A DNA stretch of 64,000 nucleotides from Hyphomonadaceae bacterium (GTDB lineage: Bacteria; Pseudomonadota; Alphaproteobacteria; Caulobacterales; Aquidulcibacteraceae): assembly GCA_009773395.1 (NCBI GenBank), contig WRPI01000003.1, positions 1-64,000 of the forward strand. The letters are read 5' to 3'. Each line of letters starts with the position of its first letter. Position 1 is the first letter of the stretch. The notes under the pieces were generated by a model. The model was not told where the DNA came from. It saw only the letters and a list, made by a program, of their open reading frames with translations, and searched no databases. A program made the translations under genes and the position numbers. Positions 58,253 to 64,000 of this stretch are shown in pieces.

Positions 58253-59413
58253 CTATATTGAGATATTAACCAACGCCTGTGCAGCAATTCCTTCTTTACG
58301 ACCCGTGAAACCCATTTGTTCAGTGGTGGTCGCTTTTATGCTGACGCAGCTTTCATCAATGCCACAAGCGATGGCGGTTGAATGCACAAGCGCGGCGCTT
58401 ATGGGCGAAATTTTCGGTTCTTCGCAAATAATGGTCAAATCCAGATTGGCGATTTTGCCACCCCGCGCCGCAATTCTATCAATTGCAAATTTGAGGAAAA
58501 TTTCCGAGCTTGCGCCGCGCCATTTGTTGTCATTTGGGGGAAATGCCCGGCCGATATCACCTTCGGCAAGCGCACCCAGAATTGCATCAACCAAAGCATG
58601 CCAAGCTACATCAGCGTCAGAATGGCCAATAAGGCCACGCGAATGCGGCACTTTGACGCCGCACAAAGTCACAAAATCACCATCGCCAAATTTATGCGCA
58701 TCAAAGCCCATTCCCAGTCGAAATTGTGGCGTGTTTTGTGGGCAAATTAAGTTTTCCATACGCGCAAAATCGCTGGCAAATGTCACCTTGTCAAGGGCAG
58801 GGGAGCCTTCGACAATTGCCACTTTAATCCCTGCATTAACCGCAATTTCAGCATCATCAGCAAATGCTGCCCCAGCTTCAAGCCGCGAATAGGCGTTCAA
58901 AAGCGCTGGCAATGCGAAGGCTTGCGGGGTTTGCACTCGGACTTTGTTTGAACGATTTATACCGTGCGCGAGGATCTTGGTTTCGCCATCTATTTCCCAA
59001 AGCGCGTCGGCCATTGCAATTGCGGGAACAGCGCCCGCATAGCCTTCTGCCAATGACACAAACAAACGATCGATTGTGCCACTATCAACACCGGGGCGAG
59101 CCGCATCATGGATAAAGACAAAATCAGCGCCAATTTCATTCGCGCGAATAAGCCCGTTGCGGCAACTTGCGCTGCGGGTTTCGCCGCCCTGCACCAAATG
59201 CAACCCTTTATTTGCACTAAGTGCCGCCAGTATTTCGGCACGAACCTGCTCATTATGTACTAAAATTACGTCTTGAAAGCGATTGTCAAGCATAAAGTAA
59301 TCAATGGCCCATTTAACCATCATTTTGCCGCCAAAACTCGCATATTGTTTCGGCGCTCCAAGGCCACTTCTTTGGCCCACGCCGCCCGCAACAATTATAG
59401 CAATCGACCGCAT
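58253..59413 (-). CDS. ispDF: bifunctional IspD/IspF isoprenoid enzyme
   Basis: Two steps of the MEP pathway in one protein of 386 residues. The N-terminal IspD domain (about 1-225) has AGGVGQRSGLGAPKQY and loads CTP on methylerythritol phosphate. The C-terminal IspF domain (about 228-386) has GFDAHKFG and GHSDADVAWHALVDA with the zinc ligands and makes the cyclic diphosphate. Fusion is standard in alphaproteobacteria. It is transcribed away from ntrB. Confidence 0.96.
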   Translation of the reverse strand: MRSIAIIVAGGVGQRSGLGAPKQYASFGGKMMVKWAIDYFMLDNRFQDVILVHNEQVRAEILAALSANKGLHLVQGGETRSASCRNGLIRANEIGADFVFIHDAARPGVDSGTIDRLFVSLAEGYAGAVPAIAMADALWEIDGETKILAHGINRSNKVRVQTPQAFALPALLNAYSRLEAGAAFADDAEIAVNAGIKVAIVEGSPALDKVTFASDFARMENLICPQNTPQFRLGMGFDAHKFGDGDFVTLCGVKVPHSRGLIGHSDADVAWHALVDAILGALAEGDIGRAFPPNDNKWRGASSEIFLKFAIDRIAARGGKIANLDLTIICEEPKISPISAALVHSTAIACGIDESCVSIKATTTEQMGFTGRKEGIAAQALVNISI

Positions 59414-59536
59414 TAAATTCTCCCGCTTCTCTTCATAGTCAATTTCTTTTCTAGCTAATTATTTGCGAAATGAAAGTGGGAAGGTTTGTGTAGTTTTGTA
59501 GTCTGAATAATTCGAATTGCCTGCAATAAGTGCAGA

Positions 59537-59553
59537 TGCTTCTTTTATGTGCA
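59537..59553. promoter_or_regulatory. candidate NtrC binding site 1
   Basis: TGCTTCTTTTATGTGCA matches the 17-bp outline of NtrC sites (TGC, nine bases, GTGCA; enteric consensus TGCACCNNNNNGGTGCA). It lies 107 bp before the ntrB start and 63 bp from site 2, about six helical turns, so both sites face the same side of the DNA. Role is inferred. Confidence 0.45.
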
Positions 59554-59599
59554 TTATTTGGTTTGAATTTTGCAGTGCAGCAATATCCCGCTAGACATT

Positions 59600-59616
59600 T
59601 GCCTATTTTTTGTGCA
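59600..59616. promoter_or_regulatory. candidate NtrC binding site 2
   Basis: TGCCTATTTTTTGTGCA has the same outline as site 1 and lies 44 bp before the ntrB start codon. With site 1 it would make a tandem pair as used by NtrC-type regulators. The gap 59414-59659 holds no gene. Confidence 0.45.
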
Positions 59617-59659
59617 TTCTAGCAATTAGACTTTTAGCCGAAGCGCAAATGGAATTTAA

Positions 59660-60769
59660 TTGGAAGACACTATCGACAAAATAATTGCTGAAAGCGCACT
59701 CAAAGATTGCGAAATTTTTGATGGCTTGCATCTGCCTGTGCTAGTCGTCAATGAGACCGGTAAAATTGACTATGCCAATAATTTTGCGCTTGACGCGCTC
59801 GCTTCGTCGCTAAAAAATCTAAAAACACTGAATTTGTTTGAAATCGTTAGGCCACCCAAAGTATTGAATAATTTGGTTCAAGAAGTATTGAGTGACGGAA
59901 TTGACGCGTCGGCGTCAGAGATTGAAATAATTTCGCCTAATTTGACCAGTTTTTGTGGTGACGTATTGCTAACCCCACATATATCGCCAAAACATGCAAT
60001 TCTTATGTTTTGGCCACGCAATAAGGCGAGTAACTTCAAAAAACAGGCCTTGGCCAATGAACGCAATCAGAGTTTTGGGCGAATTGGCTTGGCATTGGCG
60101 CATGAAGTTAAAAATCCGTTGGCGGGAATAAGGGGCGCGGCGCAATTATTGATGCTCGACGCCAGCGATGAGCAAAAGCCTTTGGGAAATCTGATAATTG
60201 AGGAAACCGATAGAATTCACCGCCTAATGGACAAAGTCGAAAGCCTAGGTGATGGTACCAGCATTGAATTAAAACCTGTGAATATTCACGCGGTTTTGGA
60301 TACGGTGGTGAAATTAGCTGAAAATGGTTTCGCGTCGGACATCAATATTTCCTGCCAATTTGATGTGTCATTGCCGCAAATGATGGGCGACACCGATAGT
60401 CTAATTCAAATATTCCTCAATATCGCGAAAAATGCTGCCGAAGCCGCGCGAGAACGCGGTGACACGGCGCATATTATATTTTCGACCAATTATCGCCATG
60501 AACATAAAATGAAGAAAAGTGAACGTGGATTTGCGCATTTACCGCTGGAAGTCGCAATTGCCGACAATGGTTTTGGCATAGCCGATGATATACAGGACTT
60601 CTTGTTTGACCCGTTCGTGACGACCAAAGCAGCGGGCAGTGGAATGGGCCTCGCAATTATTCGAAAATTAATATCAGCGCATTCAGGCACAATTGAATTT
60701 GATAGCGAAAATGGTCGCACGGTTTTTAAGGTAAGGTTTCCACTCGCACCTTTGGATATTGGAGAATAG
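59660..60769 (+). CDS. ntrB: nitrogen regulation sensor kinase NtrB
   Basis: Sensor kinase/phosphatase that sets NtrC phosphorylation according to nitrogen status through PII. The 369 residues comprise a PAS domain (about 20-120, LPVLVVNETGKIDYAN) with no membrane segments, the phospho-acceptor helix with AHEVKNPLAGIRGAAQLL, and an ATPase domain with NIAKNAAEAA, DNGFGI and GSGMGLAI. The start codon is TTG 59660, since the nearby ATG 59649 is out of frame. Its stop lies three bases before ntrC. In many relatives dusB precedes it; here ispDF does, on the other strand. Confidence 0.93.
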   Translation: MEDTIDKIIAESALKDCEIFDGLHLPVLVVNETGKIDYANNFALDALASSLKNLKTLNLFEIVRPPKVLNNLVQEVLSDGIDASASEIEIISPNLTSFCGDVLLTPHISPKHAILMFWPRNKASNFKKQALANERNQSFGRIGLALAHEVKNPLAGIRGAAQLLMLDASDEQKPLGNLIIEETDRIHRLMDKVESLGDGTSIELKPVNIHAVLDTVVKLAENGFASDINISCQFDVSLPQMMGDTDSLIQIFLNIAKNAAEAARERGDTAHIIFSTNYRHEHKMKKSERGFAHLPLEVAIADNGFGIADDIQDFLFDPFVTTKAAGSGMGLAIIRKLISAHSGTIEFDSENGRTVFKVRFPLAPLDIGE

Positions 60770-60772
60770 TGA

Positions 60773-62203
60773 ATGAAAGAAATATCGAAAGTGAACGCCG
60801 ACCATCATCGCGCTGCCGCCAACAATCGTGGAAGAATGATTCTAATTGCCGATGATGACGCATCAATTCGCACAGTATTATCACAAGCTTTAACGCGTGC
60901 TGGCTTTCAAGTTCGTTCCACTACCAATGCGGCGACCTTGTGGAAATGGGTGAAAGATGGCGAGGGTGATTTGGTGCTAACCGACGTTATGATGCCTGAT
61001 GGCAGCGTATTTGAATTTTTGCCGCGAATAAGGCGGGAAAGACCAAAACTCCCAATCATTGTAATGTCGGCACAAAACACGCTTTTGACGGCGATATCGG
61101 CAGTCGAACAAGGCGCCTATGAATATTTGCCCAAACCATTTGACCTCGGAAAAATGATTGATTTGGTGACAAGGGCGTTGGAGCCAATTTCGCAACACCG
61201 CAGTGAAAGCCAAAACCGCAAAGTCCTTAAAGACAAAAATCTGCCTTTAATTGGTCGCTCGATGCAAATGCAAGAAGTGTATCGAACCATTTCACGGGTC
61301 AGCCCGACCGATTTACCAATTGTGATTCAAGGCGAAGTTGGCGTTGGTAAGAAGCTGGTGGCGCAAACAATCCATGATTTTTCCAAACGAAAATCGGCTA
61401 ATTTTGCTCATTTTAATATTGCCGGCCTCGAAGCGCATGAACTCTCTCAAACATTATTGGGTGATGGCAAATCGCAAATTGGGCTTTTGCAAGAATGTGA
61501 CAATGGCACAATTTTTATTGAATCGGTTGATGAAGCAACAAGTTCGGCTCAGTCGCGTTTATTTAGTTTAGTTTCGAGCAGCAAAACCGATAACATCAGA
61601 TTTATTTTCTCGGCGACGAGGGAACTTGGCGCACTTGTAAGGGAAAGCGCATTTAGGACCGATTTGTATCATTTGATAAATATAATTGGCCTTGTCATAC
61701 CACCCTTGAGAGAGAGAATAGACGACATAGGCGATCTTGCGCGGCTTTTTATCGAAAAAGCCTCCGAGAGCGCGAACAGCCAAAAATTATTGGACAAAAG
61801 CGCGATAGCCGAATTAGCTAATTATTCTTGGCCAGGAAATGTTCGGGAATTGGAAAATTTGATGAAGCGCATGGCAGTATTGTTTCCCGACACCAATATT
61901 GATGGCCAAGCAATTGCTGCAAGTCTAGCGGAGCAACAAGTGCAAATTGTAACAAATGAAGACACAGGCAATAGCGATTTATCTGGTGTCGCGAAAGTCG
62001 CATTGGCGCAATTGTTTGTGCAATATAAAGGCCAAGGCGTAACACCACATGATTTATATGAAATAGTCCTGAAAGCCGTCGAAAAGCCGCTTTTTGAACT
62101 AACCCTCAAAGAGACCAAAGGCAATCAAATACGCGCTGCTAGCCTTTTGGGGCTTAATCGCAACACTCTTCGCAAACGACTGACCGAACTTAATTTGCAA
62201 TAA
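60773..62203 (+). CDS. ntrC: nitrogen response regulator NtrC lacking GAFTGA
   Basis: A 476-residue response regulator. The receiver domain has D27-D29, phospho-acceptor D71 and K121. The AAA+ domain (about 160-385) keeps Walker A (G187 to K193, GEVGVGK) and sensor II (WPGNVREL). Between about E223 and G245, the GAFTGA loop that touches sigma54 is absent and the segment is shortened. Walker B reads GTIFIES where DE is expected, and one arginine-finger position is Leu (DLYHLIN). The C-terminal Fis helix-turn-helix is intact. It therefore probably does not drive sigma54 transcription and may act with sigma70, as known for Rhodobacter capsulatus NtrC. Confidence 0.92.
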   Translation: MKEISKVNADHHRAAANNRGRMILIADDDASIRTVLSQALTRAGFQVRSTTNAATLWKWVKDGEGDLVLTDVMMPDGSVFEFLPRIRRERPKLPIIVMSAQNTLLTAISAVEQGAYEYLPKPFDLGKMIDLVTRALEPISQHRSESQNRKVLKDKNLPLIGRSMQMQEVYRTISRVSPTDLPIVIQGEVGVGKKLVAQTIHDFSKRKSANFAHFNIAGLEAHELSQTLLGDGKSQIGLLQECDNGTIFIESVDEATSSAQSRLFSLVSSSKTDNIRFIFSATRELGALVRESAFRTDLYHLINIIGLVIPPLRERIDDIGDLARLFIEKASESANSQKLLDKSAIAELANYSWPGNVRELENLMKRMAVLFPDTNIDGQAIAASLAEQQVQIVTNEDTGNSDLSGVAKVALAQLFVQYKGQGVTPHDLYEIVLKAVEKPLFELTLKETKGNQIRAASLLGLNRNTLRKRLTELNLQ

Positions 62204-62306
62204 AATCAAAGTTAGTGTTGCAATCCAAACACTATTGTGGCAAGAATGCAACGTGATAACCGAGAACCACATCGACAGTGACGGCGCTTTGGAGCCGCAT
62301 ATTGCA

Positions 62307-64000
62307 ATGACTTCGAGCATTAAGGACGCTACCGAAGCGAACTCAGGCGGCATACAAACATTTGAAGTCACTAAATTTAGCAGCATTCAAATTGTCGCCT
62401 ATGTCCTAAGCCTAATTGTAACTTTCATCGCATTATATCTCGCGGTTTCAGGCGGTGATGTAATAAATCCTGCATCGCGCTGGATTTTTGGGCTGTTGTT
62501 TTTCAATTTCGCCGTAATATCTTATTTTGCAATTGGCTTGGTCGGGCAAATATCCAAGCTTTTGAAGCAAGGCAAAGAGGCTAAAACTGGCGCCCGGTTG
62601 CACATTTATTATGTAAGATTGTTCATTTTTGCGGCTGCAATGCCAGCAATTTTGATTGCGGTTTTTTCGGCTTTCACAATTGGACGCGGGGTTCAAACTT
62701 GGCTTTCTGGGCAAGTAGCTTCGGCAATTGAAGCAACATCAAGTTTCGGCAAAGAAACAATTCAGCAAACTAGTGATGCCGCAAGGGTCGATATTTTGGC
62801 GATGGCATCAGATTTGAACGCTGCTGCCGCGCAATATAGTTCGTCGCCCAATATTTATCGCAGTTATTTGACAAGCCAAACTGGGCGTCGTGGTTTTGTC
62901 GCCGCATATTTATACAATAGCAATGGCGCGATAATTGAAAAAGTCGAAAGACCCACCGGCGCGCCCGCGCCACTTAAGCCCAAGCCAGAAGATTTCGCAA
63001 CTGCCCGCGCTGGCGATGTTTATGTCAATATTGACCATGATCTGATTGTCAGAACTTTGTTCAAACTTAACGGCTATCAAGACATTTATTTGCAAGCTGT
63101 TAGGCTACCCAAGCCCGAACAATTGCGGCTTGTGCAACAGGCTGAGCAAATTGTTGGCGCATATCGGCTTTTGGAAACCCGTCAGACGCAATTGCAAGTC
63201 GTATTCGCGCTCGCATATTTGGAGACAGTTTTATTGGTGGCAATTGGGGCGGGCTGGTTGGGCCTTGCGTCGGCGACCAATATTTCAATGCCAATTGCGC
63301 GCCTAGCATCGGCGGCGGAGCGGGTAAGAGCTGGGGATTTGTCGGTTCAAGTTTCGCCAGACTATAAATTGGGAGAGCTAACCACTCTGATTTTGACTTT
63401 TAATCGAATGACGACTGATATTCAAAATCAAAGGGATGCGATTGAAAAGTCGAGAATACAAGCCGAAACCCGTTCGGCATTTATTCAAGCACTTTTTGAA
63501 GGGGTTAGCGCGGGTATTATTAGTTTGGACGCGGATCACAAAATATTGGCCGCCAATAGTGCTGCTGCGCGCCTGCTCGATGTATCAATGCCCGAATTAT
63601 TCGCCAAAGGGCTGTTTGAAATTGCGCCAGAATTTGCGCCCATTATTAGTGATGTAACGCGTAATGTTGGGGCGCAAGGCCATGTGGAGCGTTTAACTGG
63701 AAATCGCACCCTGATTTTCGATATTCGCGCGACTTATGCCGGCAATGATTTGGTCGTGACTTTTGATGATATTTCAAGCCAAATCGCGGCGCAACGCCAA
63801 GCTGCATGGAAAGATGTGGCAAGGCGTATTGCCCATGAAATCAAAAACCCACTAACCCCTATTCAATTATCCGCCGAAAGATTGGCGAGTAAGTTTGCCA
63901 AGGAAATAACTACCGACCGCGAAGTTTTTGTAAAAATGACTGACACAATTGTCCGCCAAGTTGCAGACATTGGGCGCATGGTAGATGAGTTTTCAGATTT
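62307..64000 (+). CDS. ntrY: nitrogen sensor kinase NtrY, 5' part (runs off window)
   Basis: An open frame without stop to the window end, so at least 564 residues. It has three N-terminal membrane segments (about 27-47, 54-76 and 96-118), a periplasmic or extracytoplasmic region, a fourth segment near 310, and a HAMP domain (SMPIARLASAAERVRAGD). A PAS domain and the histidine box AHEIKNPLTPIQLSAERL (His about 510) follow. This domain order is that of NtrY, the membrane partner of NtrX. ATG 62307 has GGAG twelve bases upstream; GTG 62253 is an in-frame alternative. The ATPase domain and ntrX would follow beyond the window. Confidence 0.92.
   Translation, partial: MTSSIKDATEANSGGIQTFEVTKFSSIQIVAYVLSLIVTFIALYLAVSGGDVINPASRWIFGLLFFNFAVISYFAIGLVGQISKLLKQGKEAKTGARLHIYYVRLFIFAAAMPAILIAVFSAFTIGRGVQTWLSGQVASAIEATSSFGKETIQQTSDAARVDILAMASDLNAAAAQYSSSPNIYRSYLTSQTGRRGFVAAYLYNSNGAIIEKVERPTGAPAPLKPKPEDFATARAGDVYVNIDHDLIVRTLFKLNGYQDIYLQAVRLPKPEQLRLVQQAEQIVGAYRLLETRQTQLQVVFALAYLETVLLVAIGAGWLGLASATNISMPIARLASAAERVRAGDLSVQVSPDYKLGELTTLILTFNRMTTDIQNQRDAIEKSRIQAETRSAFIQALFEGVSAGIISLDADHKILAANSAAARLLDVSMPELFAKGLFEIAPEFAPIISDVTRNVGAQGHVERLTGNRTLIFDIRATYAGNDLVVTFDDISSQIAAQRQAAWKDVARRIAHEIKNPLTPIQLSAERLASKFAKEITTDREVFVKMTDTIVRQVADIGRMVDEFSD

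Follow-up and report, generated by a model that had tools for sequence, protein, structure and literature searches.

The window analysed here is a 64,000-nucleotide stretch of DNA (46.6% GC) from a 2.63 Mb Caulobacterales genome that is 99.9% complete, in which it opens contig 6 (C6). Near its end lies ntrC, an uninterrupted open reading frame that begins with ATG and encodes 476 amino acids. The gene order is ntrB-ntrC-(ntrY)-ntrX: as expected of NtrC, an NtrB-type kinase precedes it and a kinase paired with NtrX follows, and ntrB ends 3 bases 5' of ntrC. The genes and the features of the encoded protein are as follows.

59660..60769, + strand: ntrB, sensor kinase with HisKA and HATPase_c domains (best NCBIfam family NR(II), 176.6 bits, below the cut-off of 240)
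60773..62203, + strand: ntrC, 476 amino acids, the subject gene
60839..61168, + strand: receiver domain, residues 23-132, with the phospho-acceptor D71 (60983-60985) retained
61331..61354, + strand: Walker A GEVGVGKK, residues 187-194, with Lys193
61415..61417, + strand: N215, position of the glutamate-switch Asn, present here and often altered in other NtrC proteins without GAFTGA
61442..61492, + strand: shortened loop L1, residues 224-240, without GAFTGA
61508..61525, + strand: Walker B TIFIES, residues 246-251, with D replaced by E250 and E by S251
61565..61597, + strand: pre-sensor-I loop L2, residues 265-275, cut by 10 residues relative to E. coli NtrC
61655..61657, + strand: arginine finger 1, R295, retained
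61673..61675, + strand: position of arginine finger 2, here Leu301
61844..61846, + strand: sensor II Arg, R358
62069..62188, + strand: Fis-type helix-turn-helix (HTH), residues 433-472
62235..64000, continuing past the window end, + strand: sensor kinase at the ntrY position (763 amino acids in the genome; named from its position alone)

Four Pfam domains were assigned to the protein: a receiver (residues 23-132), Sigma54_activat (159-306), an AAA lid (313-391) and a Fis HTH (433-472). A receiver, an AAA+ domain and a Fis HTH are thereby combined in one protein, as in NtrC. NtrC was the best NCBIfam family by a wide margin, yet the score of 405.8 bits lay below the TIGR01818 equivalog cut-off of 558.6; the NtrX encoded downstream, outside the window, scored 721 bits against a cut-off of 600. 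In trees built without paralogs such as NtrX, the protein was placed with its own genus inside the NtrC of Caulobacterales, and the NtrC of another family of the same order (f3) grouped with Caulobacter and Phenylobacterium sequences. The His, N and G boxes of ntrB are complete by eye. The gap at 59413-59660, 5' of ntrB, lacks dusB, which precedes ntrB/ntrC in Sinorhizobium and Paracoccus records, and an ispD-ispF fusion and a cinA/pncC-type gene lie divergent from ntrB at this gap.

In a BLASTP alignment with E. coli K-12 NtrC (32% identity), the protein lacks 8 residues opposite TGANTIRQ in L1 and 10 residues ahead of sensor I, the latter corresponding to the L2 hairpin. Both pore loops, L1 and L2, are therefore cut, and the L1 deletion that removes GAFTGA, proposed in the original prediction, is of the kind found in NtrC of Rhodobacter capsulatus and Caulobacter. 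FIES (residues 248-251) paired gaplessly with FLDE of the E. coli protein, and the NtrC1 structures aligned alike. The bacterial enhancer-binding protein (bEBP) hallmarks of a GAFTGA loop and a Walker B DE are thus both missing, and the Walker B pair is ES. Loss of both Walker B acids had been predicted; this is correct for the catalytic Glu, which is replaced by Ser (S251), but not for the Asp, which has undergone a conservative change to Glu (E250) and remains an acid. No DE pair was found elsewhere in the domain in the alignments with E. coli NtrC and NtrC1. A displaced Walker B at VDE (252-254) was considered and rejected, since VDE lies gaplessly under the canonical I-G-D, the residues that follow DE. 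The predicted retention of the receiver, Walker A and the Fis domain agrees with the presence of D71, Lys193 and the HTH at 433-472. An AlphaFold model computed with 30 own-family sequences had a mean pLDDT of 80.4 and a pTM of 0.50, and in it strand 246-250 ends at E250, where the Walker B strand is expected to end. Comparison of the modelled AAA+ domain by VIA-align gave as the top AAA+-only chain 3m0e (Z 25.4, rmsd 2.1, 228 residues aligned; tied with other bEBPs), an ATP-bound Walker B mutant of NtrC1 according to its PDB title. The AAA+ fold is preserved in the model, and this fold match says nothing on activity. The NtrX of the same genome (L003, C6:64946-65437) also has no GAFTGA, but retains the Walker B DE.

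NtrC was sought in genomes of the own family (60), the order (120) and the class (289), in 18 chosen genomes of the class and in named records, from which 80 loci were retained. Sequences were fetched and aligned for part of the matches, a chosen subset made up mostly of the best-scoring ones, and NtrX, FlbD and other paralogs were removed by hand. The 272 NtrC sequences gathered were reduced to 264 by leaving out two shorter than 380 amino acids (L138, L168) and six identical ones; L167 (36% identical, on a long branch) and L077 were retained in the 264 and may be non-orthologs. GAFTGA, or GSFTGA, was present in 148 of these 264 distinct sequences of at least 380 amino acids, and all 148 carried DE. 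Among the 116 sequences without GAFTGA, DE was retained in 54 and lost in 62. In the own family DE was absent from all 56 readable NtrC sequences (60 genomes searched), compared with none of the 148 that bear GAFTGA. The pairs at this position in the 56 were ED (28), DG (13), DD (4), DC (2) and KG (2), with ES, QS, KD, SG, RH, QH and RG found once each. In the five genomes of the own genus, G, C or S replaces the catalytic Glu, and Leu or Ile stands at the finger 2 position.

Three other families retained DE in most or all sequences (f2, 24/24; f3, 11/11; f4, 7/9). Six DE-less sequences lay outside the own family: two from f4, one from f113, one from f90, that of Paracoccus ferrooxidans and one from a Rhodobacteraceae MAG. 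These GAFTGA-less, DE-less NtrC proteins of distant lineages are L129, L206, L147, L281, L075 and L076. The f113 sequence, which falls outside the thinned sets described below, has also lost the first Walker A Gly. In three of the 60 own-family genomes the only matches were at NtrX level, and ntrC therefore seems absent there; one further genome (G424) yielded a fragment in which L1 is unreadable. In one family of the order (f5) and one genus of f3 (g9) the best match likewise did not rise above that expected for NtrX, with E values of roughly 1e-46 to 1e-57, and ntrC seems absent.

The residues associated with ATP binding followed a different course from Walker B. The Walker A Lys and the sensor II Arg were present in 264 of 264 sequences and arginine finger 1 in 263; all three were retained in each of the 56 own-family proteins. 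Invariant residues were also observed in the receiver and the HTH. When the sequences were thinned to below 85% identity, 112 with GAFTGA, 27 without GAFTGA and with DE, and 33 from the own family remained. Walker A G187, G192 and K193 and sensor II showed no variation across the three thinned sets, and finger 1 showed a single variant, in the set of 27. In the own family these columns, finger 1 among them, had zero entropy while both Walker B columns varied, and Walker B was variable in this set only, the set of 27 having DE by definition. Position N215 is presumably the equivalent of PspF N64, judging from the alignment and the PspF sequence; Asn occupied this column in 112/112 sequences with GAFTGA, 11/27 without GAFTGA and with DE, and 10/33 of the own family. 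Directly behind the Lys of Walker A, Glu was found in 112/112 thinned GAFTGA-bearing sequences versus 19/33 in the own family, and sensor I drifts too; the nucleotide pocket is therefore only partly fixed.

These columns bear on the original proposal that the protein is a DNA-binding switch driven by phosphorylation, and on a reading of it in which ATP is not used at all and the AAA+ domain is a passive spacer or dimerisation platform. The loss of Walker B, of both pore loops and, in the own genus, of finger 2 would fit such a protein, and VpsR, a bEBP without GAFTGA, is cited in PMC10274813 as not needing ATP. Against it, the Lys of Walker A, the Arg of sensor II and finger 1 are present in 56 of 56 own-family sequences and fixed in the thinned set in which Walker B varies. 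The proposal is thus incomplete in that it omits these family-invariant residues, and their invariance argues that ATP binding still matters. We therefore judge a switch governed by phosphorylation without ATP to be quite improbable. The residue pattern agrees with a protein in which ATP is bound and its hydrolysis is not needed.

Two NtrC trees were used to place the losses, one of all 264 rows and one of 121 rows (80 of the 116 without GAFTGA and 41 of the 148 with it). Parsimony required five changes for GAFTGA and eight for DE on the 121-row tree, and seven and eight, respectively, on the 264-row tree. On the larger tree the eight DE changes were reconstructed as six losses and two regains (in f2 and f4); repeated loss of DE seems to us likelier than regain. 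The own family was split over more than one clade in both trees, and the number of losses is therefore uncertain. Each DE change on the 264-row tree fell within a lineage without GAFTGA or on a branch of loop loss, and such branches make up about 40% of the tree length (29.3 and 2.6 of 79.0). A sign test of whether DE loss depends on the loss of GAFTGA found only five supported pairs on the 121-row tree (median p 1); with so few pairs, the association rests on the counts and on the placement of the changes on the tree.

Among own-family relatives, NG86 dN/dS was 0.011-0.095 over the whole gene in 11 pairs and 0.009-0.083 over the AAA+ part in the 10 computable pairs; dS exceeded 1 in several pairs, and the source gene, too diverged, is in none of the pairs. 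Strong purifying selection among close relatives, together with the open frame, rules out a pseudogene. A gene decaying en route to loss could be read from the three family genomes with matches only at NtrX level. Against this stand the open frame, the retained gene cluster, the invariant receiver and HTH residues and the low dN/dS of the relatives (about 0.01-0.10, including the AAA+ part), and we find gradual decay scarcely credible.

The promoter of glnBA provided a second line of evidence. The 300 bases upstream of glnB were scanned for TGGCACR-N4-TTGCW at 12 scored positions, with GG and the last G required. The 89 loci came from 30 of the 60 family genomes, 29 further class genomes and 30 loci (28 genomes) picked as lacking GAFTGA; the class genomes were those with the best-scoring glnB matches, 84 of 115 having matched. 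Two loci without glnA nearby (L384, L385) were left out of the count, and four genomes without an assigned NtrC status (three with a site, one without) fell in neither group. Of the 23 genomes with GAFTGA-bearing NtrC, 22 have a -24/-12 site scoring at least 10/12, versus 1 of the 60 whose NtrC is without GAFTGA (Fisher p 7.5e-18, kinship ignored), or 1 of 59 when G424, with its NtrC fragment, is left out. The exceptions were G155, which has GAFTGA and no site, and G435 (L314), an own-family member without GAFTGA whose site scores 11 and whose NtrC reads ED. Grouped by hand into lineages, the site occurred in 22 of 23 GAFTGA-bearing families versus none of six lineages without GAFTGA (p 1.5e-5, with G435 inside Caulobacterales ignored).

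In the source genome no -24/-12 site was found in the 300 bases upstream of glnBA, where the best score, 6/12, was no better than in shuffled sequences, and none was seen by eye upstream of glnK. The core target glnBA thus lacks the -24/-12 promoter typical of bEBP regulation, which lends independent support to the loss of sigma54 coupling. A genome-wide count of -24/-12 sites was discarded, as the loose pattern gave 390 hits and the reversed control was poorly matched in composition. Absence of rpoN was ruled out as an explanation, the gene being present in the source genome and its sigma54 having all three domains. The genome also encodes a FlbD-like protein with GAFTGA and DE (743.8 bits against a cut-off of 750) and a further response regulator/activator with GSFTGA and DE, so that sigma54 has other work.

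An NtrC that still acts with sigma54 would also fit the gene content, which includes rpoN, FlbD and another activator carrying an L1 motif and DE. NtrC would then be the hydrolysis-dead subunit of mixed rings shared with one of the other activators, FlbD for example. HTH mutants of Caulobacter NtrC have some sigma54 transcripts raised and activate sigma54 flagellar genes (PMC12421884), and by analogy some link between NtrC and sigma54 may exist. Mixed rings are difficult to reconcile with a glnBA that has no -24/-12 site in 59 of 60 genomes without GAFTGA, and with the cutting of both L1 and L2, and we regard them as very unlikely.

Two candidate NtrC sites lie upstream of ntrB.

59537..59553, no strand assigned: TGC-N11-GCA dyad TGCTTCTTTTATGTGCA, candidate NtrC site 5' of ntrB, the best dyad score in the upstream stretch (shuffle p 0.0075)
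59600..59616, no strand assigned: second candidate dyad TGCCTATTTTTTGTGCA 5' of ntrB, 63 bp centre to centre from the first, or six helical turns

This pair (59537-59616) is possibly a set of autoregulatory NtrC sites. The pattern TGCMYANNNNNTRKGCA occurs at eight exact places in the source genome, that at 59600..59616 included, and its reversed control at none. By the open reading frame map, these are the ntrB site, a site at a permease gene, two more outside the listed frames and four inside; the pattern was drawn up after the ntrB site had been seen and is therefore a lead only. The perfect dyad TGCCTATAATTTAGGCA (C8:367487-367503; L411:1501-1517) has its centre 113 bases ahead of an amino-acid permease frame, and some 2 kb further downstream a glutamine-synthetase-like gene starts, with the same orientation (C8:369555). 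This locus is possibly a nitrogen-scavenging operon under NtrC.

Upstream of glnBA in the source genome there is an imperfect dyad, TGCCTATGTTTTAAGCT (shuffle p 0.225). Dyads of the form TGC-N11-GCA with shuffle p no greater than 0.05 were found upstream of glnB in 19/60 genomes without GAFTGA and 10/23 with it, and upstream of ntrB in 9/96 and 14/112, respectively, where chance would give about 5 and 6; these counts are suggestive only. In the window, the one-mismatch dyad pattern was not enriched (5 found, 3.6 expected). A scan for the E. coli type NtrC box, which we take to be TGCACC-N5-GGTGCA, gave scores of 9/12 at most, in 3 of 15 glnB upstream regions.

Loss of GAFTGA and action with sigma70 are already known for NtrC. 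According to citations in PMC10274813, R. capsulatus NtrC acts with sigma70 and needs ATP binding rather than hydrolysis; its lack of GAFTGA and its sigma70 action had been mentioned in the original prediction, as had the lack of GAFTGA in Caulobacter NtrC, which agrees with the same source. Like the protein studied here, R. capsulatus NtrC is an alphaproteobacterial NtrC without GAFTGA, a likeness drawn from published descriptions, and a Paracoccus (Rhodobacterales) record shares the order kinase-regulator-kinase-regulator. Unlike the own family, the relatives of R. capsulatus show a separate loop loss on the tree, and three f27 sequences that group with Paracoccus retain DE; Paracoccus itself has IED. 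Caulobacter crescentus NtrC has the same gene order, the 8-residue L1 deletion and the REC-AAA+-HTH architecture, and differs in its Walker B Asp, which is present (PMC10274813). The Caulobacteraceae NtrC sequences aligned here also have no GAFTGA, but L2 is almost complete in them and both DE and finger 2 are retained. That paper further reports that Caulobacter NtrC activates glnBA directly and regulates sigma70 promoters, and that a Walker B change, D235A, leaves it unable to support growth on ammonium. The growth failure of D235A indicates that at least one NtrC without GAFTGA cannot do without hydrolysis, and the two published cases therefore differ.

Several systems outside nitrogen NtrC are also comparable. 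VpsR, E. coli TyrR, DhaR and R. capsulatus HupR are NtrC-type proteins with no usable GAFTGA that act with sigma70 (PMC3162934 and PMC10274813), but they belong to other subfamilies. PMC4132715 reports that PspF E108Q forms hexamers in the absence of nucleotide, with less than 1% ATPase activity and an ATP affinity raised 30-fold, that E108D and E108A have reduced ATPase, and that N64 pairs with the Walker B Glu in a 'glutamate switch'. E108Q and the Walker B mutants of NtrC1 (the latter from the 3m0e title) resemble the present protein in that the Walker B Glu is removed and ATP binding retained. Those mutants were made by hand in sigma54 activators, whereas the changes here are natural and occur only in proteins without GAFTGA. 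A literature search of titles and abstract openings, with few subscription papers, returned no report of natural NtrC Walker B loss or of loss of the glnBA sigma54 promoter; within that search, the family-wide Walker B loss and the matching glnBA promoter loss have no earlier report.

The acidic E250 and the ED pair in 28 of 56 family proteins suggest that slow turnover might be retained. An enzyme of this kind, its activity low but useful, would hold Mg with E250, use another acid to activate water and act at sigma70 promoters, and would thus stand nearer to the Caulobacter protein. The swapped ED (28/56) and DD (4/56) pairs of the own family, the reduced ATPase of PspF E108D and E108A and the ammonium growth defect of Caulobacter D235A can all be cited for it (PMC4132715 and PMC10274813). 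Set against these are the G, C or S at the catalytic Glu position and the Leu or Ile at finger 2 in the five genomes of the own genus, and the pairs QS, SG, KG, RH, QH, KD and RG elsewhere in the family, which leave no acid fixed at either position. A slow ATPase is on balance unlikely.

Most likely, judging from the conserved and varying residues, ATP hydrolysis has been given up in own-family NtrC, with ATP binding and phosphorylation under selection. We favour, with a probability of roughly 60%, reading the protein as an NtrC ortholog detached from sigma54 and driven by phosphorylation, with ATP bound but hardly or not hydrolysed and with the housekeeping RNA polymerase as its partner. NtrB would phosphorylate D71, and the receiver would then permit assembly of the AAA+ domains with ATP. 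Walker A, sensor II and arginine finger 1 would bind the nucleotide, which would serve as a structural ligand and undergo little or no hydrolysis. Once assembled, NtrC would occupy dyad sites, the pair upstream of ntrB and probably others at further nitrogen genes, and would raise or lower transcription by the housekeeping RNA polymerase. ATP binding without hydrolysis, the oligomer on DNA and the sigma70 partner are inferred here from knowledge of AAA+ proteins and from the published relatives.

A broader proposal, to which we would give even odds, is that NtrC decays in a set order once contact with sigma54 ends. L1, L2 and often the switch Asn would be lost first, along with the -24/-12 site at glnBA. 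The acids of Walker B would go next, as would finger 2, throughout the own family and in several other lineages, and the Lys of Walker A and the Arg of sensor II would stay. The own family would then contain an enhancer-binding protein that is by nature ATPase-dead and ATP-locked and that works with the housekeeping RNA polymerase to activate nitrogen genes.

The role of ATP hydrolysis in an enhancer-binding protein that does not remodel sigma54 is at issue here, R. capsulatus NtrC being reportedly independent of it and Caulobacter NtrC apparently dependent. The own family, in which the hydrolysis residues are gone and the main ATP-binding residues retained, stands beside sister families that have both, and the question becomes testable by comparison and by swapping. 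Loss of the glnBA sigma54 promoter, seen in six lineages by hand grouping, would flag NtrC proteins that have left sigma54, and own-family NtrC would be the natural extreme beside the two published cases.
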